Assembly (NCBI RefSeq): GCF_010727945.1 | Contig: NZ_AP022569.1 | Coordinates: 3,100,001-3,164,000 of the forward strand | Length of the DNA stretch: 64,000 bases | From: Mycobacterium cookii | Lineage (GTDB): Bacteria; Actinomycetota; Actinomycetes; Mycobacteriales; Mycobacteriaceae | Reading direction: 5' to 3' | Shown here: piece after piece, positions 20,701 to 63,878 of the stretch | How the letters are laid out: each line of letters begins with the position of its first letter | Numbering within the stretch: the first letter of the stretch is position 1 | Notes under the pieces: model-generated | What the model was told of the DNA's origin: nothing | The model's database searches: none | The model's input: the letters and a program-made list of their open reading frames with translations, nothing else | Position numbers and translations under genes: made by a program

Positions 20701-23700
20701 TCAGTGGCCGTCGCCGAACTGCCGGTGAGCACCAGCAAACCGACTAGGCACCCTGACCTGCCGGCGATGGCCGTTTCCGGGGAGCTGGAGCGGCTGTGTG
20801 TCGTCGTCGCGGGGTGCGGTCGTGTCCTGGACCGAGGATCCGCCTCCTACTTCCCGCTGACTCGACAGCAAGGCGCGGACCACCGGACGCGGCCCCTCGG
20901 ATCGAAGCATGTAACTCGCCGGTCGTGGACGAACTATCAGCGGCCACCAGAACCAACGTCCGAGCAGCGCGGCGATGGTCGGCGTCATGAACGAGCGCAC
21001 AACCAATGTGTCGAACAACAGGCCGAGGCCGATCGTGGTGCCGACCTGACCGATAATTCGAAGATCGCTCGCCGCCATTGAGGCCATGGTGAAAGCGAAC
21101 ACCAGCCCCGCATTTGTCACTACCTTCCCGGTGCCGCCCATTGCGCGGATGATACCGGTATTTATACCCGCGGCTATCTCCTCTTTCATGCGAGATACCA
21201 AAAGCAAATTGTAGTCCGACCCGACTGCCAAAAGGACGATCACGGACATCGGAAGCACCATCCAGTGCAATTTCATGCCAAGAATGTATTGCCAGATCAG
21301 CACCGAAAGCCCAAACGAAGCGCCCAATGAAAGCGCGACCGTGCCCACGATAACCAGAGCGGCCACAAAACTTCGCGTGATGACGAGCATTATGATGAAA
21401 ATAAGGCAGAGCGCACCGACGAGTGCGATCCGTAGATCGTATCGGGAGCCGTCACGGAAGTCTTTGAAAGTCGACGCGGTGCCGGAGATATAAATCCCGG
21501 AGTCCGCCAGGGGCGTCGTCTTGAGCGCCTCCGCCGCCGCCGTTTTTATCTGATTGATCCGCGCTATGCCCTCGGGAGTCGCGGGATCGCCCCGATGCGA
21601 AATGATGAATCGAGCCGCTTTCCCGTCCGGAGACAGGAAGGAATTCATCGCGTGCTGGAAGTCCGGATTCTGGAAAATCTCCGGGGGTAGGTAGAAGGAA
21701 TCATCGTTCTTGGCGGCATCGAAAGCCTGCCCCATGGCGTTGGCATCCTCGTTCGATTTGTCCATCTCGCCGAAGGACCCAGCCATGCTGCTATGCATCG
21801 TCAGCAGCATGCTCCTGATGGATTCCATGTTGGCGATCATCATTGGCAACTGCTGAAGTAGCTGCGGCAGCAGCGCGTCCATCTTGTCCAGATCCTTCAT
21901 GAGGTCCAGCAACTTATCGCCAAGCTCATCGATCCCGCTGACGACGTCAAATATCGACCTGATCGACCAGCATATCGGTATATCGTAACAGTGTTTTTCC
22001 CAGTAGAAATAACTCCGAATTGGTCTCCAGAAGTCCTCGAAATCGGACACGTAATCTCTTAAATCATCGACAACGACGGTCAACTCTTTTGTCTCGGCGA
22101 ATGTCTGGTGAGTAATCTCGGTCATCTTCTTCTGAATTTCATACATGCGCTTCATCAACACGATTTGTCTAGCCAGCATATCCGCCTGCTTGAGCAGGTC
22201 GTTTATGCTGGCTTTCATATACTTCATGTCTTGCATTTGGCCTGCGTTTTGCATGCTGATCAGGAAAGGTATCGAAGTGTGCTCAATCGGCGTCCCCTCG
22301 GGGCGGGTTATACCCTGCACTCGAGAAATCCCTTTGACTTTGAAAATGGCTTTGGCTAGTTTGTGCAGCACGAGAAAATCTGCCGGATTGCGCATATCGT
22401 GATCGGATTCGATCATCAAAATCTCTGGCATCATTCGCGCCTGAGAGAAATGCCGATCAGCGGCCGCATATCCCAAATTGGCGGGAATGTCTTGGGGTAC
22501 ATAGAGCCGGTCGTTGTAGCTCGTTTTGTAGCCCGGTAGCGTGACCAGACCGATCAACGCGATTGTCAATGTCGCGACGAGGATAGGCGCGGGCCAGCGG
22601 ACAATCGCCGTGCCGACCCGTCGCCATCGATAGGCCGCGATGCTGCGTTTGGGATCGAATAACCCGAAACGACCGCCGACGGTCAGAACAGCGGGAACCA
22701 GCGTGACCGCGACCGCGACAGCGACGAGCATGCCTACCGCGCACGGCACACCTATGGTCTGGAACATGGGCATGCGGGTAAAGCTCAGACACAACATTGC
22801 GCCGGCGATCGTCAAACCGGAACCCAAGACAACGGGAGTGACCCCGCGGAAAGTCGTGTAATAGGCCGTTTCTGGATCCTGGCCAGCCTGACGGGCCTCT
22901 TGATACCGGCCGAAAAAGAATATCCCATAATCAGTCCCGGCCGCCATCGCGAGCGCCACCAGCAGATTAATGGCAAACATTGACAGTACGACGATATCCT
23001 TATCGCCGAGAAAAGCGACGATACCCCGAGCCGAAAATAACTCGATCGCGACCGTGATCAACAAAATTATCACGGTGGTAATCGAACGATAGACGAGGAG
23101 CAGTACCGCGAAAATAATCACCGCGCCTATGACGGTCATTTTCAGAATGGATCTGTCGCTAGCACCCTGCATATCCGTAACGAGCGACGACGGCCCGGTG
23201 ACGTACACCTTGACGCCGGGCGGCGGCGTCATCGGCTCTACTATGTTCCTGACCGCCGCGACGGATTCCTGCCCTAAAGTTGTGCCCTGGTTACCGGCTA
23301 GGTACAACTGCGCGTAAACAGCCTTGCCATCGGGGCTTTGCGCGCCGGTCGCGGTGAGTCGATCTCCCCAAAGATCCTGCACGTGCTCGATATGCCGGGG
23401 GTCGGCTCTCAGCTTGCGGACCAAATCGTCGTAATAAGTGTGGGCATCGTCTCCGAGCTTTTGCTGTCCCTCCAGGACGATCATTGCGAAACTGTCCGAA
23501 TCGGATTCTTTGAAGACCTTCCCCATCCGGGTCATGGCCTGTACCGATGGCGCGTCTCGGGGACTCAGCGGTACCGAATGCTCTCGGCCGACCTGCTCCA
23601 GCCATGGGACTGCCAGAGTCACAACCAAAGTCACCGCCACCCAGGCCAAGATGATCAGCAGCGAAAGCTTGCGGATCGTCCGCGCGATGAATGGAACTCG

Positions 23701-23718
23701 AGGGTGTTCGCTGCTCAC
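20701..23718 (-). CDS. mmpL4b: MmpL family transporter, MmpL4b-like
   Basis: A 1005-residue RND-superfamily lipid exporter: TM1, a large periplasmic domain, TM2-6 with AGTDYGIFF, a second periplasmic loop with a long helical part and two Cys ([10 protein letters not shown]), and TM7-12 with GSDYNLLL. The two Asp-Tyr pairs are the proton-relay residues of MmpL proteins. The tail (about 950-1005) is hydrophilic. It lies 12 nt after the paralogous mmpL, giving mmpS-mmpL-mmpL, the order of GPL export genes (mmpS4-mmpL4a-mmpL4b). The 4a/4b assignment rests on order only. Confidence 0.85.
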
Positions 23719-23730
23719 TGAATCCGCCGA

Positions 23731-26613
23731 TTACCGCTGCTGTGTCAGCAGTAAGGCACGTACCACCGGCCGGGGTCCTGTCGGCCGAAGTAATGAACTG
23801 GCGGGGCGGGGCCGCACCTGCAGCGGCCACCAGAACCAGCGCCCCAGCAGCGCAGCGATGGATGGCGTCATGAACGCGCGCACCACCAGCGTGTCGAATA
23901 GCAGACCCAGACCGATCGTCGTCCCTATCTGACCGATAGTGCGCAGATCGCTGACCACCATGGATCCCATCGTGAACGCGAACACCAGCCCCGCGTTCGT
24001 CACGACCTTGCCCGTACCACCCATTGCACGAATGATGCCGGTGTTGATGCCGGCGCCTATTTCTTCTTTCATCCGGGCGACCAATAGCAAGTTATAGTCC
24101 GACCCCACCGCCAAAAGCATGATCACGGACATGACGAGCACCGCCCAGTGAATTTGGATGCCGGCCAGATACTGCCAGACGAACACGGACAGCCCGAAAG
24201 ACGCGCCCAGCGAGACCAATACGGTGCCCACGATAACTAGCGCGGCAACAAAACTTCGCGTGATGATCAGCATGACGGTGAAAATCAGGCAGAGCGCGGC
24301 GATTCCCGCGATCACAAGGTCATATGTAGAACCCTGCACCACGTCCTTCACCGCCGCCGCGGTGCCGGCGAGGTAGATCTTGGAGTCTTCCAGCGGAGTT
24401 CCCTTGAGCGCCTCCTCGGCCGCGCTTTGTATCGGTTCGACCCGCGAGATGCCCTCGGGCGAGGCGGGATCGCCCTTTTGGGAAATGAGCATTCGGACTG
24501 CCTTCCCATCCGGCGAGAGGAATATGTTCATGACCCGTTTGAAGTCTTTGGTCTTGAACACGTCCGGCGGCAGGTAGAAGGAATCGTCGTTTTTCGCTGC
24601 GTCGAATGCCTTTCCCATGGCGGTCGTGTTGCCGCCATTGTCGTCCATTTGGTCGAAGACCCCGGACATGGTGCTGTGCATGGTCAGCATCATGGTCCGC
24701 ATGCCCTGCATGATCGAGATCATCTCCGGGAACTGCGCGATCAGCTGCGGCATAACTATATCTAATTGATCGAGATTTGCGACCAGGTCCTGAAGCCTAT
24801 CGGTAACCTCGTCGACACCGTCGAGCGTATCGAAGACGCTTCTTATCGAGTAGCAGATAGGGATGTCGTGACAATGCTTTTCCCAGTAGAAGTAACTGCG
24901 GATCGGCCTCCAGAAATCCTCGAAATCCGAAATGTGATCCCGCAGCTCATTGGTGACTTCTTGCATTTCATGCGTTTCGCCGACCATGTGATGAGTCGTC
25001 GCGACCAACTGTTGCATCAGGCCAGACATACGCTGCATGATGTTGATCGTTTCCGTCATAATCTCGGCCTGCTTGAGCATGTCGTTCATGCGTTGTTTCT
25101 GAAAGTGCATGGATTGCTGCATACCGGCGTTTTGCATGCTTAGCATCCACGGAATTGTCGTGTGCGCGATCGGGGTTCCCTCGGGACGAGTTACGGCCTG
25201 CACCTTGGAAATGCCCGGAACAGCGAGGACGGCCTTGGCCAATTTGTCCAATACCAGAAAGTCTGCCGGATTGCGCAGATCGTGATTGGCCTCGACCAAC
25301 AAAATCTCGGGAGTCATCATTGCCGACTGAGGAAAATGTCGCGCTGCGGCCTCGAACCCTTCATTGGCTGGGATGTTCTTGGGGAGGAATTTTTGGTCGT
25401 TGTAGCTCGGTTTGTATCCCGGTAACGTCAACAGCCCAACCAACGCGACCGCTAATGTGGCAACAAGAATCGGCGCGGGCCACCGAACGGTCGCCGTGCC
25501 TATCCGGCGCCATCCGCGAACCTTGATTCTCCGCTTTGGCTCGAATAGATGGAAACGGCTTCCGACAGTAAGAACTGCCGGAATCAACGTAAGCGCCACC
25601 GCGACCGCGACTGTTATGCCCACCGCGCAAGGGACGCCTAGAGCCTGAAAAAAGGGCAGCCGAGTAAAGGTCAGGCAGAAACAGGCCCCGGCGATCGTCA
25701 AACCAGAGGCCAAGACAACCCTGGCGACTCCGTGGTAAGCCGCGAAATACGCCGCCTCCCGACTATCGCCGGCCTGACGCGCCTCTTGGTACCGCCCGAT
25801 GAAAAATATCCCGTAGTCGGTTCCAGCCGCCAGGCACACCGACACCAGCAGATTAACGGCGAAGGTGGTAAGTCCAATAACGTCGTGATAGCCAAGGAAT
25901 GCGACTATTCCTCGGGCCACCTGCAATTCCATCCCGACTACCAGCAATAAGAGAATTACGGTCACAATCGAGCGGTAGACAAAAAACAACGTAATGAAGA
26001 TTACCGCGAGGCTTACCGCCGTAATTGTGAGGATCGTCCGGTCGCCGCTGTTGCCTATATCCGCAGCGATGGCCGACGGACCGGTGACATACGCTTTGAC
26101 GCCCGGTGGCGCCGGCGTCTGTTCGACGATGTGCTGAATGGCTGCGATCGATTCGGCAGCCAAGCTTGAGCCCTGCATGCCGGCGAGATTCAATTGCACA
26201 TATGCGGCCTTACCATCGGCGCTTTGCGCGGCGCCGGCCGTGAGTGGATCGCCCCAGAAGTTCTGGATGTGCCGCACATGCTGCGTGTCTTCGTTAAACT
26301 GACGAATCAAATGGTCGTAGTATTTGTGGGCATCGGCGCCGAGGGGTTGCTGACCTTCCAAGACGATCATCGCGATACCGCCGCCGGAACTGGCTTCCTT
26401 GAAGTCCTCGTTCATACGCGTTACGGCCTTGAACGTCGGTGAATCGGTGGAATTCAGCGGTATTGAATGCTCTTTCTCGACCTGTTCCAGCGGGGGGACG
26501 CCGACCCCCAACCCCACCATCACCGCCAACCAGCCCAAAATGATGGGGACCGAAAATCGACGAATCGTCCGGGCTAAGAATGGCGCGCTGTCGCGCAGCT
26601 GATGGTTACTCAT
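23731..26613 (-). CDS. mmpL4a: MmpL family transporter, MmpL4a-like
   Basis: A 960-residue MmpL transporter with the same architecture as its downstream neighbour: AGTDYGIFF and [15 protein letters not shown] carry the Asp-Tyr proton-relay pairs, and the second periplasmic loop has the [11 protein letters not shown]ys pair. By eye the two share well over half of their residues, so they are tandem paralogues. Its ATG overlaps the mmpS stop by 8 nt. In M. smegmatis and M. abscessus both MmpL4a and MmpL4b are needed for GPL on the surface. A similar role here is inferred from the adjoining NRPS/PKS locus. Confidence 0.87.
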
Positions 26614-27235
26614 CGGCCTTCAGCAGACAGGAGGCGAAGGCGCTCGGGCCATGCGTAATTTTCTCGGTTTTGACCACACCGTCCACCATGATGCGGCAGC
26701 CGATGCTGTCGCTATCGCCCTGCGCAGCGATATCTCCGGCGGACGTTTGCGGGGTCATCGCGAACTCCAATGACCACGGCAGACGGACTCCGTCAGCATG
26801 CGCGGGGTCACCATTGGCGTCGAAATAGCTGATGTCGCCGACGGTCCCCGGGGGTCCGAAGATCTCGTATCTCAGGTGTTTGGGGTTGAAGGGCTTGGCC
26901 TCGACTTTGGTGTCGCCATACGAGAGAAGTTTCTCGGAGCCGAAGATGCCGTGCAGCCGCGCCACCGTCAATCCTCCGGCGCCGACAACCACCAGGATGA
27001 CCAGCGGGATCCACAGCCGCCGCATGGCCTTAACAATCGCATATCCCGGAAGCCGACGACTCTTTCGAGATTTAGCCTGGGGTCGAGGTGCTGGCGAAGG
27101 TTGCCAAGTAGCCGGCAGAGGGGCGACTTCGCGGCCAAGGCGTCGGCCGACGTCTCGGAGGTCCTCTGCAGCGACATCGGACCAGGCTTCCGCGACGTCG
27201 ACGTCGCGCACACCGGGTTCGATCACCGCGCCCAA
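26606..27235 (-). CDS. mmpS4: MmpS family protein, MmpS4-like
   Basis: A membrane-anchored accessory protein of MmpL. The core begins at MRRLWIPLV, with one TM helix (about residues 73-93 of the long form), then a periplasmic beta domain with [29 protein letters not shown] and a Cys pair ([15 protein letters not shown]). From ATG at 27028 it would be 140 residues, the usual MmpS length. The open frame continues up to TTG at 27235, adding 69 hydrophilic residues, and that start lies only 4 nt after a short mbtH-like relic frame. I keep the long form because the extension reads as coding, but the start is unresolved. Confidence 0.82.
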
Positions 27236-27239
27236 CCTT

Positions 27240-27287
27240 TCACCCGTCGACCCAAACCAAAATCGCCGCCAACGGATTGATGCTCAT
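27240..27287 (-). pseudogene. mbtH 5' relic (15 codons) upstream of mmpS
   Basis: Read on the minus strand, ATG at 27287 starts MSINP followed by ten residues and TGA. Its first codons share 16 consecutive bases (TGAGCATCAATCCGTT) with the start of the intact mbtH at 63630, and the last residues (LVWVDG) align with FVLVND of MbtH after a short deletion. The preceding 52 nt are also homologous to the mbtH upstream region. It ends 4 nt before the TTG start of mmpS, so it may act as a short leader frame. Confidence 0.7.
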
Positions 27288-27339
27288 CGGTTCTGCAGAC
27301 CGCACAGTTCGACACGAGTCGAACAGCTCCAAACCATAC
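27288..27339 (-). promoter_or_regulatory. mbtH-type upstream block in front of mmpS
   Basis: On the minus strand this begins GTATGGTTTGGA, continues with TGTTCGACTCGTGTCGAAC and ends CGGTCTG-CAGAACCG. It aligns with 63578-63629 (before mbtH) and 51280-51331 (before pks), with two compensating 1-nt indels against mbtH. The GTATGGT-to-start distance is 52 nt in all three. It most likely carries the promoter or operator of mmpS-mmpL-mmpL. Confidence 0.6.
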
Positions 27340-27485
27340 CCACGGCCAACAATATTGATCCAGTCTTTCAGTAAAATCAGCTGCCGGACCGGTCAGATCG
27401 TCCGAACGTCTGGCGCAGCTCGGCAGGTTTCCACGGCCCGTGAGGCGCGGGCTTACTGTACACATGTGCGGTAGGGTGTCGCGCT

Positions 27486-29069
27486 ATGGCGGCTCTTGAC
27501 GACACGGAGCGGGCGCTACCTCCCTGGACGACGCACAGCGCGGGATGCGCGACGCCGACCTCCGCCGAGCCGACTCGGCTGTCGTCTCGTCAATTCATCA
27601 GCGTCCTTATCGCCCTCGGCGGCATTCAGCTGATGGCGTCGATGGATGGCCCCGTCGTGGTCTTCGCGCTTCCGAAGATCCAAAACGAGCTCGGCCTGTC
27701 GGACGCCGCGCGCAGCTGGGTGATCACCGCTTATGCGCTGACCTTTGGCGGCCTGATCCTGCTGGGCGGCCGTCTCGGTGACGCCATCGGTCGCAAGCGC
27801 ACCTTGATCGCCGGGGTCGCGCTGTTCACCTCCGCGTCGACGATCTGCGGCGTCGCCTGGGATGGCGGCGCTCTCGTTGTGGCCCGGCTGCTGCACGGCG
27901 CGGCGGCGGCGATCGTCGTTCCGACCTGTGTGGCACTGGTAGCCACCACGTTCCCGAAGGGACCGGCACGCAACACGGCGACCGGGGTGTTCGGCGCGAT
28001 GGGCGCGATCGGCGCGGTGGTGGGCCTGGTGGTGGGCGGGGCGCTCACCGGGGTGTCCTGGCGACTGGCGTTTCTGGTGAACGTGCCGCTCGGGCTGCTG
28101 GTGATCTACCTGGTCCGCACCATGCTGCCGGAAACCCTGCGAAAGCCAACCAGGCTCGACGCCCGTGGCGCGCTGCTGGCGACGTTGATCTGTACCGCTA
28201 CGGTCTTCGGCTTGTCGATGGGGCCGGAGAGGGGCTGGCTGTCGGCCGCGACGATCGGTCCGGGCCTGGTCGCCATCACCGCTTTCGTGGTGTTTCTCGT
28301 GTTGGAACGCACGGCTCAGGACCCCATCGTGCCGTTCAGCCTGTTCTCCGACCGCAACCGGCTGGCTATGTTCGCCGCCATGTTCTTCTCCAGGGGGATC
28401 GGCTTCACCGTGACCGTGCTGCTCGCCATGTATGTGCAGAACATCATGGGCTACAGTCCGCTGCGCGCAGCTGTTGGTTTCATCCCGTTCGCTGTCGCGA
28501 TGGCCATCGCGACAGCTGTGTCGTCGCGGCTGGTGATGCGGTTCTCGCCGCGGGCGATGGTGATTGCCGGGAGCATCCTGCTGCTCGGCTCGACACTGTA
28601 CGTCTCGACGCTCAACGCCGGCGTCCCGTACTTCCCGAACCTGGTGTTGCCTCTGGTCGTCGGCGCTATCGGTCTCGGCGTGATCAACGTGCCGCTCGGG
28701 CTATCGTTGTACGCCAGCGTCGGTATCGACCGCATCGGGCCCGCCTCGGCGATCGCGGTGATGCTGCAGAGCCTCGGCGGGCCGTTCGTGCTGGTCGTCA
28801 TCGAGGTGGTCATCACGTCGCGCACGCTGCAATTGGGCGGCACCGGCGGGCCCGTGAAGGCAATGAACGCTGCCCAGTTGCATGCGCTGGAGCATGGCTA
28901 CACCTACGGCCTGCAGTGGCTGGCCGGGGTGGTCATCCTGCTCTGCGGGGTGGGGCTGCTGATCGGCTACACCGCACAGCAGGTGGCGCACGCACAGAAA
29001 GTCAAGGGCGCCATCGACGCTGCGGAGGATTCGTCAGTCGATCTGCCCAGTCAGATCGAACTCAGCTAG
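27486..29069 (+). CDS. MFS transporter, DHA2 (14-TM) family
   Basis: A 527-residue major facilitator. About 14 hydrophobic helices and motif A GGRLGDAIGRKR between TM2 and TM3 identify the drug:H+ antiporter-2 family (EmrB/QacA-like). The N-terminal 35 residues are hydrophilic. It is divergent from mmpS across 250 nt and convergent with the acyltransferase gene, overlapping it by 36 nt. Substrate unknown; it could export a lipid, a drug or a precursor of the neighbouring pathway. Confidence 0.87.
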   Translation: MAALDDTERALPPWTTHSAGCATPTSAEPTRLSSRQFISVLIALGGIQLMASMDGPVVVFALPKIQNELGLSDAARSWVITAYALTFGGLILLGGRLGDAIGRKRTLIAGVALFTSASTICGVAWDGGALVVARLLHGAAAAIVVPTCVALVATTFPKGPARNTATGVFGAMGAIGAVVGLVVGGALTGVSWRLAFLVNVPLGLLVIYLVRTMLPETLRKPTRLDARGALLATLICTATVFGLSMGPERGWLSAATIGPGLVAITAFVVFLVLERTAQDPIVPFSLFSDRNRLAMFAAMFFSRGIGFTVTVLLAMYVQNIMGYSPLRAAVGFIPFAVAMAIATAVSSRLVMRFSPRAMVIAGSILLLGSTLYVSTLNAGVPYFPNLVLPLVVGAIGLGVINVPLGLSLYASVGIDRIGPASAIAVMLQSLGGPFVLVVIEVVITSRTLQLGGTGGPVKAMNAAQLHALEHGYTYGLQWLAGVVILLCGVGLLIGYTAQQVAHAQKVKGAIDAAEDSSVDLPSQIELS

Positions 29070-49929: not shown

Positions 49930-51216
49930 ATGAAATTCGTGCTGGCCAGTTGGGGCAGCCGCGGCGACGTCGAGCCCAACCTCGCCGTCGGCCGCGAGTT
50001 GGTTCGGCGCGGTCACGACGTGTGCATGGCCGTCCCGCCCGACCTGGTCGATTTCACGGAGGCAGCGGGGGTCCCGGCAGTCGGCTTCGGACCGGAAGCG
50101 CGGTCGATTCTGGACTCGCATCGGGAGTTCTGGACGTGTTTCTTCAGCCACCCCTGGAGGGTTCGGAAGCTGGTCAGGTCGCGACTCGACATCGCGGCAC
50201 CGCTGCTTCGGGGATGGCAGGAGATGAGCACCACGCTGATGTCGCTGGCAGACGGGGCCGACCTGCTTTTCACCGGCATCAATTTCGAGGACGCCGCCGC
50301 CAATGTTGCCGAGCACTACGACATTCCGCTGGCGACGTTGCACTATTTCCCGTTGCGGCCCAACGGCCAGACCCTGCGATTTCTGCCGGCGCCGTTGGCC
50401 CGCGCGGCAGTGGCAGCGTTCTGGTGGGTGACCTGGCGCGGAATGAAGAAGGCGGAGGACGCCCAGCGCCGTGAACTCGGCCTGCCGAAAGCAACCGGCT
50501 CCGCGCCGCGGCGGATCACCGAACGCGGGTCGCTGGAAATCCAGGCCTACGACGAGGCGTGCTTTCCCGGGCTGGCGGCCGAGTGGGCGAAGTGGGACTG
50601 TCAACGACCGTTCGTGGGCACGCTGACGCTCGAGTTGGCGACGGCTGCCGACGACGAAGTCGCGTCGTGGATCGCCGCGGGCACGCCGCCGATCTACTTC
50701 GGGTTCGGCAGCATTCCGGTCGAATCTCCGAGCGACACCATTGCGATGATCGCCGCGGCCTGTGCGCGGTTGGGTGAGCGGGCGCTGATCGGTGCAGCCG
50801 GCACCGACTTCGGTAACGTCCCCCACTTCGAGCACGTAAAAGTGGTCGGCACGATGAATTACGCCACCGTCTTCCCCGCCTGTCGTGCGGTCGTCCACCA
50901 CGGCGGCTCGAGCACGACGCCCATCGCGATGCGCGCCGGCGTCCCCCAGCTGATCCTGTTCTGGGACATGGTTCACGCGGTTTACGGAGCTGCTGTCAAA
51001 CGGTTGAAGGTGGGTAGCGCCCGGCGCTTTTCGACCGCGACCGAGGAGGCGTTGGTCCACGACTTGCGCCTGATCCTCGGGCCGGACTACGTGTCCCGGG
51101 CTCGCGAGCTCGCCACCCGGATCACCGAGCCCGCCAAAAGCGCTGCCGCCGCCGCTGACCGGCTGGAGGATTTCGCCCGTCTCGCCCGTACCGGTCGTAC
51201 GGAACGGAGCGTGTGA
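49930..51216 (+). CDS. GPL-type glycosyltransferase, GT1 family (paralogue 3, altered donor motif)
   Basis: A 428-residue glycosyltransferase, MKFVLASWGSRGDVEP. The whole frame matches paralogues 1 and 2, including ELGLPKATGSAPRRI and IYFGFGSIPV, but the donor-phosphate motif reads VVHHGGSSTTPIAMRAG instead of VVHHGGAGTTAAGLRAG, and the following loop is LFWDMVHAVYGAAVKRL. It therefore probably uses a different donor or is catalytically changed. ATG at 49930 matches the other paralogues. It stands alone, upstream of the mbtH relic and pks. Confidence 0.87.
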   Translation: MKFVLASWGSRGDVEPNLAVGRELVRRGHDVCMAVPPDLVDFTEAAGVPAVGFGPEARSILDSHREFWTCFFSHPWRVRKLVRSRLDIAAPLLRGWQEMSTTLMSLADGADLLFTGINFEDAAANVAEHYDIPLATLHYFPLRPNGQTLRFLPAPLARAAVAAFWWVTWRGMKKAEDAQRRELGLPKATGSAPRRITERGSLEIQAYDEACFPGLAAEWAKWDCQRPFVGTLTLELATAADDEVASWIAAGTPPIYFGFGSIPVESPSDTIAMIAAACARLGERALIGAAGTDFGNVPHFEHVKVVGTMNYATVFPACRAVVHHGGSSTTPIAMRAGVPQLILFWDMVHAVYGAAVKRLKVGSARRFSTATEEALVHDLRLILGPDYVSRARELATRITEPAKSAAAAADRLEDFARLARTGRTERSV

Positions 51217-51279
51217 GCCGGGTCACATCCAGCTTTCGGATTCTTTTGCCGAAACTCTGGATCGGTTTCAGGGCCTCAA

Positions 51280-51331
51280 GTATGGTTTGGAACTTGTTCT
51301 ACTCATGTCAGATAGTCGGTGTGATGGCGCG
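51280..51331 (+). promoter_or_regulatory. mbtH-type upstream block in front of the relic and pks
   Basis: GTATGGTTTGGAACTTGTTC followed by TACTCATGTC. It matches the region before mbtH (63578) at about 70% without net indels, and shares GTATGGTTTGGA with the block before mmpS. It lies about 260 nt before the pks start and is the best candidate for the pks promoter. The 132 nt between the relic and pks show no gene. Confidence 0.6.
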
Positions 51332-51454
51332 GTGGGGACAGCCCGTCCGATGCCGACAGCGGCAATGATCTGCCTTCTTCTCAACGACGAGGAGCAACAC
51401 CGCTCGTGACCGGCCTTCGCCGACGTAGCAACCGACTGGCGGGTGCTTTTCCGT
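51332..51454 (+). pseudogene. mbtH pseudogene with in-frame stop, upstream of pks
   Basis: The frame from GTG at 51332 aligns codon by codon with mbtH at 63630. Codons 18-23 read NDEEQH in both. Codon 26, the Trp (TGG) in mbtH, is TGA here (51407-51409). After the stop, PAFADVATDWRV parallels [12 protein letters not shown]. Codons 2-15 have diverged and homology ends near codon 41. An ATG at 51305 is also aligned with the ATG at 63603. It cannot give an MbtH protein. Confidence 0.85.
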
Positions 51455-51586
51455 AAAGCAGCCGGCGCGTAAGCCGCACCGCAAATTCGACGGGTCCGGT
51501 CACCCAGTGCTGCGCAGCATGCAGCAGCCCCGGCCACCACGCCTACCAGGCCGATTGAATAACCCCAGCTCAGAGAGGACGCCCAC

Positions 51587-62578
<10,992 letters not shown>

Positions 62579-62643: not shown

Positions 62644-63495
62644 ATGGCTAACGGCAGCGAACCCGCGGTTGCAATGTCGGCACACCTGGCCGACGACCTG
62701 TTGTCCACGACCGCCGGAGGATGGCGCAACTTCTATAACTTGCTGAGCCGCCGCCTGGAAGCGGTCGGGGTGGCCGACTCGTCGTTTTTCTTGAACTACG
62801 GCTACGTTCCGACGGATTCCGACAACGAGTCCGCGTTCGTCATTCGCGACGGCACCTTCAACGCCAACTCGGTGCGGCTGGTGTTCGAGGTCATCGGTTC
62901 GCTTGACCTGAACAATCGCACGGTCGTCGAAATAGGCTGTGGCCGTGGGGGTAACTCCAGGACCGTCGCGGAGAAATTCAGCGCTCACGTCATCGGCATC
63001 GACATGTCCTCGGAAGCGATCGCATTCTGCGAAAAAACGCATGTCGGCAGTTCGATCGACTTCAAGGTAGGCGACGCGCTGAACATTCCGCTCGGCGATG
63101 CGGTATGCGACGCCGTCTTGAACATCGAGTCCTCACATTCATATGGAAACCTGCCGAAATTCCTGGGTGAAGTTCGCCGGATATGCCGCACCGAGGCATG
63201 GTTCCTGCACACCGACTTCCTGAGCCCCGAGGACTGGGACTACGTACGGATGCGCCTGAAGGCGCTGGGCTTCGCCGTCGAAGACGACCGCGACATCACC
63301 GCCAACGTGTTGGCCTCGCGTGATCAAGCGAGCAATAACTGGGAGCAGGTCTACGGCGACGGAAATCCCCGAGTGGCGAACTTCCTCGCCCTACCGGGGT
63401 CGGCAATCTACGAGCAAATGCGGGCGGGCTTGCTGGAGTACCGCATCCTACGGTCTCAGCTTCGCGCCCCGACGACATCCGCTTCGACCGGTTAG
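62644..63495 (+). CDS. SAM-dependent methyltransferase, possible fatty-acyl O-methyltransferase (Fmt-like)
   Basis: A 283-residue class I methyltransferase with SAM motif [12 protein letters not shown] and acidic [11 protein letters not shown]. The FFLNYGYVP stretch resembles the Rv2952/phthiotriol methyltransferase group, which acts on long-chain lipid hydroxyls. It is 65 nt after pks and next to mbtH, so methylation of the chain hydroxyl made by module 1 is the likely job, as Fmt does in M. smegmatis GPL. A GAGG sequence precedes ATG at 62644 by about 9 nt. Confidence 0.82.
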
Positions 63496-63577: not shown

Positions 63578-63629
63578 GTATGGTCAAGAACTTGTTGTAC
63601 CCATGTCGATTAGACGGTCTGGAGACACG
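63578..63629 (+). promoter_or_regulatory. mbtH-mps1 upstream block
   Basis: GTATGGT at 63578 is followed by GAACTTGTTGTACCCATGTC and CGGTCTGGAG. The distance from GTATGGT to GTG at 63630 is 52 nt, identical to the copies at 27339 and 51280. GGAG at 63621 serves as ribosome binding site. This is the probable promoter region of the mbtH-NRPS operon. Confidence 0.6.
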
Positions 63630-63878
63630 GTGAGCATCAATCCGTTCGACGACGGCGACGGCAGCTTTTTCGTCTTGGTCAACGACGAGGAACAGCACAG
63701 CCTGTGGCCGGCGTTCGCGGAGGTTCCGGCTGGCTGGCGGGTGGTGTACGGCGAGGGGGATCGCGCAGCGTGTCTGGACTACATCGAACAGAACTGGACC
63801 GATATCCGGCCGAAAAGCCTGCGCGAGGGGTTGGCATCGAGACAGGGGGTTTCGATAGGTACACCGAATGGCTCTTAA
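63630..63878 (+). CDS. mbtH: MbtH-like protein of the GPL NRPS
   Basis: An 82-residue MbtH-like protein. It has the family core [24 protein letters not shown] and the three family Trp ([23 protein letters not shown]). MbtH proteins bind NRPS adenylation domains and activate them. GTG at 63630 is preferred over ATG at 63603 because GGAG lies just upstream and MSINPF is the usual N-terminus. The stop overlaps the next ATG by 11 nt. Confidence 0.93.

Follow-up and report, generated by a model that had tools for sequence, protein, structure and literature searches.

An mbtH-type 5' block, probably a captured promoter, before mmpS in a putative glycopeptidolipid-type locus of Mycobacterium cookii

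How are the peptide synthetase, the polyketide synthase and the exporter of a long glycopeptidolipid (GPL) locus switched on jointly? This question is addressed by a short sequence block that recurs in 64,000 nucleotides of Mycobacterium cookii DNA (contig NZ_AP022569.1, positions 3,100,001 to 3,164,000; the window). The window belongs to a genome of 5,318,517 bases and, judging by its gene set set beside the excerpted text of Ripoll 2007 (PMC1885439), appears to be part of a GPL-type locus. The block stands before mbtH, before the polyketide synthase gene pks and, on the opposite strand, before the exporter gene mmpS. From sequence comparison, the mmpS-side stretch is probably a SigA-type promoter captured from mbtH, which would co-express the exporter with the assembly line.

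The mbtH 5' region before mmpS

The three copies and the sequences around them are as follows (R1 is the profile described below, G229 the genome of a second species).

27288..27339, minus strand: mbtH-type 5' block (putative promoter plus 5' leader, 52 nt) before mmpS; R1 34.1 bits, E 1.3e-7; 47/52 in G229
27333..27338, minus strand: TATGGT, candidate -10 element, fitting the motif TANNNT
27339..27383, minus strand: weaker likeness to mbtH upstream regions; 7th of 127,910 positions with the 45-nt matrix described below
27240..27287, minus strand: mbtH start codon and decayed first codons, a 15-codon relic frame with stop; sequence matches, frame broken in G229
51280..51331, plus strand: second block copy, before pks; R1 40.6 bits, E 1.2e-9
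51332..51460, plus strand: decayed remains of mbtH coding sequence, lying between the block and pks; mbtH residues 15-43 align in tblastn at 52% identity
63578..63629, plus strand: block before intact mbtH; R1 58.1 bits, this copy itself being among the 11 R1 source sequences

R1 is a sequence-only profile built from 11 true mbtH upstream regions, with the window's own included and the pks and mmpS copies excluded. Searched against the whole 5.3-Mb genome, it scored 58.1 bits at mbtH, 40.6 bits at pks and 34.1 bits at mmpS (E 1.3e-7), and the next-best match had 13.5 bits and E 0.32. Significant matches thus occur at three genes only, all in this locus. This bears out an earlier interpretation of the DNA (the sequence-only reading), which had taken the stretch for a copy of the mbtH 5' region with the remainder of mbtH gone, and had named occurrence of the block at unrelated genes as a result that would count against it. 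The mmpS copy was also recovered in an nhmmer search of about 408 kb (28.0 bits, E 5.8e-7). A 45-nt matrix made only from the sequence before TATGGT in 84 distinct mbtH copies (window mbtH in, mmpS and pks copies out) placed the pks site first, the mbtH site second and the mmpS site seventh among 127,910 window positions.

Individual motifs differ in how much they say. GTATGGTTTGGA is exact at 27328-27339 (-) and 51280-51291 (+) and has 3 mismatches at 63578 (+); this 12-mer alone is uninformative at 3 mismatches (22 matches against 22.3 expected). ATGAGCATCAATCCGTT matches perfectly at 27271-27287 (-), and at 63630 with a single mismatch, GTG in place of ATG; allowing up to 3 mismatches, the window holds 3 matches against 0.13 expected, and 0 of 100 shuffles reached 3. 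In the whole genome RTGAGCATCAATCCGTT was found without mismatch only at the mmpS-side and mbtH-side sites, with one mismatch nowhere and with two at three sites, and its reversed control pattern had no match.

The mbtH start codon and codons stand in register before mmpS: 16 consecutive bases across the start are identical to mbtH, 52 nt after GTATGGT. This spacing from GTATGGT to the start codon is common to all three copies (27339-27287, 51280-51332 and 63578-63630), and the relic frame runs for 15 codons plus TGA, ending 4 nt before TTG 27235; on each of these points the sequence-only reading was accurate. The leader of the mmpS copy contains a perfect inverted repeat, GTTCGAC-TCGT-GTCGAAC (27307-27324, minus strand), which is imperfect in G229.

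What a second species has kept

The G229 locus is syntenic with the window, with the same order for the genes compared, and holds the same three block copies (R1 scores of 50.1 bits at mbtH, 46.0 at mmpS and 45.0 at pks). On the mmpS side, the two species are identical at 47 of 52 block positions, 47 of 61 in the relic and leader, 34 of 60 in the 60 nt before the block (by another alignment 49 of 100 columns, 19 of these gaps) and 421 of 631 columns of the mmpS gene. The best 52-column window of the compared mmpS stretch, taken in steps of 10, was the block itself, and TATGGT is present in the window copy and kept in G229. Before mmpS, the mbtH frame stays open for 15 codons in the window but for 5 in G229, and in both species the ribosome-binding site of mbtH, CTGGAGA, has become CTGCAGA there; translation of the remnant is therefore not what is kept. 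The block is conserved before mmpS whereas the mbtH remnant peptide is not, and the window and G229 frames do not support a conserved peptide from the mmpS-side remnant.

These frames bear on the best-surviving alternative, in which the remnant is a working leader open reading frame (ORF), its 15 mbtH codons being translated and its end coupled to mmpS translation. We consider this unlikely. In its favour, the stop of the window's relic falls 4 nt before TTG 27235 and 13 nt before GTG 27226, and the pks copies offer a parallel: in 8 of 8 genomes examined of one group, a 30-codon remnant there begins with TTG and ends in a TGA that overlaps the pks ATG. The G229 frame, however, has only 5 codons, the ribosome-binding site is altered in both species, and even the pks leaders vary evenly over codon positions, open frames alone being not improbable. 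The combination expected of a coupled leader ORF (conserved frame, ribosome-binding site and adjoining stop) was not found for mmpS; for pks, frame and overlap are present in eight genomes.

In those eight (G017, G174, G058, G241, G051, G205, G270 and G137; loci L072, L073/L074, L078, L120, L122, L125, L132 and L142) a TTG-started mbtH remnant of exactly 30 sense codons lies between block and pks, its TGA overlapping the pks ATG (AAATGACC), and in most of them it resembles the first 22-25 MbtH residues. Ten genomes have the block immediately ahead of pks: these eight, the window's and G229, the last two being without the 30-codon frame. The pks leader peptide shows no constraint because its variable sites are spread evenly over codon positions (16, 16 and 13). 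The chance of such open frames was 0.37 for no stop and 0.0001 to 0.05 for no indel, under assumed rates. The kept frame and length of the pks leader are suggestive only, and the 30-codon remnant is possibly a translationally coupled leader ORF.

The start of mmpS itself is most likely GTG 27226 rather than TTG 27235, at which the sequence-only reading had begun the gene. TTG 27235 is probably not the start because L010, L011 and L012 have an in-frame stop four codons before the aligned GTG, with no start codon between, and because a likely ribosome-binding site lies 9 nt ahead of GTG 27226:

27236..27241, minus strand: GAAAGG, likely mmpS ribosome-binding site; the corresponding position reads GGAAGG in G229 and GAAAGG in L015, L017 and L020

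An alignment of 11 MmpS proteins is no evidence on the start codon, each start having been chosen by the analyst beforehand.

A second alternative, without any capture, is that co-regulated genes came to share a regulator or sigma-factor motif in their upstream regions. It would fit the presence of the block before several different pathway genes, and the mmpS copies of the M. interjectum group, which have the block without any mbtH codons. The window and G229 copies, however, carry 16 and about 14 mbtH coding bases, with the start region at the same distance, and this explanation is disfavoured for the mmpS copy because convergence on coding bases is not expected; we regard it as very unlikely. 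Just as improbable is a rearrangement scar without function, with mmpS transcribed from elsewhere: the relic coding part is decaying and the model finds no block before mmpS in most named relatives, but no other 52 columns around mmpS are as well conserved as the block between the two species, whose MmpS proteins are 57% identical.

We return to a captured SigA-type promoter as the preferred reading. The excerpted text of PMC6448022 gives TANNNT as the -10 motif preferred by SigA in M. smegmatis; our criterion for a SigA promoter was TANNNT 6-13 nt before a mapped transcription start. TANNNT occurs near the TATGGT position in 85 of 86 intact mbtH copies, although the anchor was chosen by that pattern and the count is not independent. 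Conservation extends into the leader and to a TT..AA element 28-42 nt before TATGGT, and these parts may hold a regulator site. A terminator scan led nowhere. That the mmpS operon is run from the block, as the sequence-only reading had put it, agrees with the promoter part being kept in a second species; its activity we infer from this conservation.

Under this model, an mbtH 5' region made up of an upstream element, the TATGGT -10 box, a leader of about 40 nt, the start codon and some codons would have been joined before mmpS through duplication and rearrangement inside the GPL-type locus, the remainder of mbtH being lost. Transcription by RNA polymerase carrying the housekeeping sigma factor would begin a short distance past TATGGT, while translation of mmpS-mmpL-mmpL would rely on the ribosome-binding site belonging to mmpS and on GTG 27226. 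The exporter, the polyketide synthase and the peptide synthetase would then have one promoter type in common. MbtH-like proteins are described as interchangeable, with citations to others, in the excerpted text of PMC4570654; since they can replace each other, an mbtH copy could decay while its promoter was kept.

Distribution in the genus and origin of the mmpS copy

Searching 248 genomes of the genus (the window's included) with R1, under stricter filters by which weak matches are lost, gave 130 matches in 84 genomes, and 164 of the 248 had no match. The block was followed by an intact mbtH in 91 cases (5 of them assigned from coordinates only), by a non-ribosomal peptide synthetase (NRPS) gene without intact mbtH in 20, by pks in 11, by mmpS in 5 and by a remnant of a major facilitator superfamily (MFS) gene in 1. 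Thus 128 of 130 stand before mbtH, NRPS, pks, mmpS or MFS genes, and two weak matches fall outside these classes (G183:3742877, 18.5 bits; G273:C22, 20.1 bits). Ten of the 11 pks matches are close to pks and one is further off (G264). The NRPS rows were assigned by sequence pattern (16) or by reading starts (4); nine of the 20 were scanned, and all nine had Pfam condensation domains. Before NRPS genes the promoter has apparently been retained after mbtH loss, as judged from the order of block, degraded or no intact mbtH, and NRPS gene. This order was seen at L130, L136, L139, L141, L146, L150, L151, L154, L161 and L162, and at L164, L166, L167, L179, L181, L185, L186, L194, L196 and L208.

Of 80 named mmpS loci, 9 have a block immediately ahead of mmpS according to the model, with E values up to 0.022. 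Species with this arrangement include two M. interjectum strains, M. bohemicum (weak, E 0.02), M. helveticum and M. terramassiliense; in the two M. interjectum strains, M. bohemicum and others no mbtH codons accompany the block. At least 5 of the remaining 71 loci, M. paraense among them, show by eye a diverged block below the model threshold. For 33 of the 80 the model gave a match (E 1e-5 or better) on the opposite strand, between 0.4 and 1.5 kb upstream; in seven genomes that were compared, this is where a divergent mbtH lies. Local alignment of a 125-nt probe to the mmpS upstream regions of 29 relatives gave five scores that exceeded the shuffles by 3 or more, all of them gapped alignments either elsewhere or within mmpS itself, and this search missed the diverged block seen by eye.

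Weak block matches were also seen before an MFS gene, at L069 7671-7714 (-) and L077 4294-4342 (+), in G058 (the MFS remnant) and G051, where the MFS gene runs in the same direction as mmpS. Upstream of a glycosyltransferase gene, weak matches came from the nhmmer search of about 408 kb only (G017, 13.8 bits; G051, 6.3 bits).

The sequence-only reading described the mmpS promoter as borrowed from mbtH; the stretch is indeed an mbtH 5' copy with its promoter part conserved in G229, but the source is probably not the present mbtH. Upstream of the block, the window mmpS copy is 32% identical to the present mbtH against 51% to the pks-side copy (mmpS-pks identity in G229 is 59%), and the mmpS copies resemble the mbtH 5' region of G188 at 54-63% upstream and 78-86% in the block. 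In a tree of 92 rows and 105 columns, with 32 of 89 inner branches unresolved, the window and G229 mmpS copies pair (99/90), apart from their own mbtH copies. The tree took in those of the 130 matches that scored 28 bits or more and whose sequence was available, mmpS rows of any score, and 4 mmpS rows added by hand. Grouping the two mmpS copies with their own mbtH was rejected (p-AU 0.026) and grouping them with their pks copies was not (p 0.46), the groups in both cases having been chosen after the tree was seen. Origin from the window's present mbtH is disfavoured by the upstream identities and by this post hoc rejection, and an older mbtH 5' region is the likely source.

The pks-side relic may mark the original mbtH site, because in G024 and G049 mbtH follows the glycosyltransferase which precedes pks in the window. 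A single origin of all ten pks blocks was rejected (p 0.004, groups named after the tree was seen), and the tree places the M. interjectum group's eight pks blocks with G024-type mbtH copies (100/99). For the mmpS blocks, a test for two separate gains did not reject one origin for copies with and without mbtH codons (p 0.29).

Several observations weigh against promoter capture from mbtH, or against the source just described. The mmpS copy has the lowest R1 score of the window's three copies, a strict sigma-70 scan found no promoter at it, and the model places no block directly before mmpS in 71 of the 80 named loci. Within the block, the window mmpS copy is nearly equally similar to its own mbtH (71%) and to the pks-side copy (73%), and its coding part matches the present mbtH at 23 of 32 positions against 16 of 32 for the decayed pks-side relic. 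With a single origin not rejected, the block could also have begun long ago as a promoter of mmpS and have exchanged sequence with mbtH afterwards.

The locus and its known control

Gene names were taken from Pfam and NCBIfam matches, except pks, which was named from the first reading of the DNA and from comparison of the locus with the excerpted PMC1885439. The principal genes are:

26606..27226, minus strand: mmpS; Pfam PF05423, 2.8e-54; GTG start preferred over TTG 27235
23731..26613, minus strand: first mmpL; Pfam MMPL, 5.3e-221
20701..23718, minus strand: second mmpL; Pfam MMPL, 5.7e-229
51587..62578, plus strand: pks, an ORF of 3663 amino acids; orthologues by tblastn
63630..63878, plus strand: mbtH, 82 amino acids, GTG start; Pfam MbtH, 2.1e-29

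To the right of the mmpS-mmpL-mmpL genes (20701-27226, minus strand) lie an MFS gene in the opposite direction (27486-29069) and sugar and tailoring genes. A glycosyltransferase gene ends at 51216; beyond it come pks (51587-62578), then a methyltransferase gene (62644-63495) and finally mbtH (63630-63878). MmpS, at 56% identity to G229, is the most diverged protein of the locus; both MmpL proteins are 72% identical and most others 64-89%. In seven relatives (L014, L019, L021, L022, L024, L025 and L031) mmpS and mbtH lie side by side in divergent orientation, with 0.5 to 0.9 kb separating them; in the window they are 36 kb apart, with tailoring genes and pks in between.

Promoter capture by a duplicated gene 5' end, which leaves a promoter and a truncated old frame before another gene, is a general mechanism; here, by comparison, the same donor, mbtH, is found before several genes of one pathway in many species. 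The block resembles the promoter of the mycobacterial GPL-locus mbtH operon (mbtH-mps1-mps2-gap) in the excerpted text of Ripoll 2007 (PMC1885439), 91 of 130 block matches preceding an intact mbtH; it differs in that copies also stand before mmpS, pks and NRPS genes without intact mbtH, which that excerpt does not mention.

A second point of comparison is GplR1 (MAB_1638) of M. abscessus, a GPL-locus regulator with one operator in the regulatory region of an mbtH homologue, according to the excerpted text of PMC12455991. That text describes only two GplR1 sites in the M. abscessus GPL locus, and its authors judged direct control of the whole locus unlikely. Allowing up to 2 mismatches, the operator (a 23-nt TCTGG-N13-CCAGA inverted repeat) had no site at 27240-27400 and showed no clear excess over the window as a whole (36 matches where 26.4 were expected, a count that 4 of 100 shuffles reached). 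A single GplR1-type match with 2 mismatches lies just before the pks-side block (51256-51278). With no site at 27240-27400, a GplR1-type operator is not supported as an explanation of the mmpS-side block. In the open-licence literature searched, we found no description of mbtH-derived promoters or leader ORFs.

The conserved 5' block common to mbtH, pks and mmpS is a defined candidate cis element, and its profile finds it in 84 of 248 genomes of the genus. Looking beyond this locus, the chances seem to us evenly divided that mycobacterial lipopeptide clusters reuse the mbtH 5' region as a control cassette. It would have been placed before the exporter, pks (more than once) and NRPS genes, would outlive mbtH and would unite the locus in one regulon; before pks, roughly the first 22 mbtH codons would have become a coupled leader ORF. 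The mbtH remnants before NRPS genes would be explained in the same way, with another MbtH serving while the gene decays and the promoter stays. The same donor, mbtH, recurs across the pathway, which is of interest for the regulation of GPL biosynthesis.
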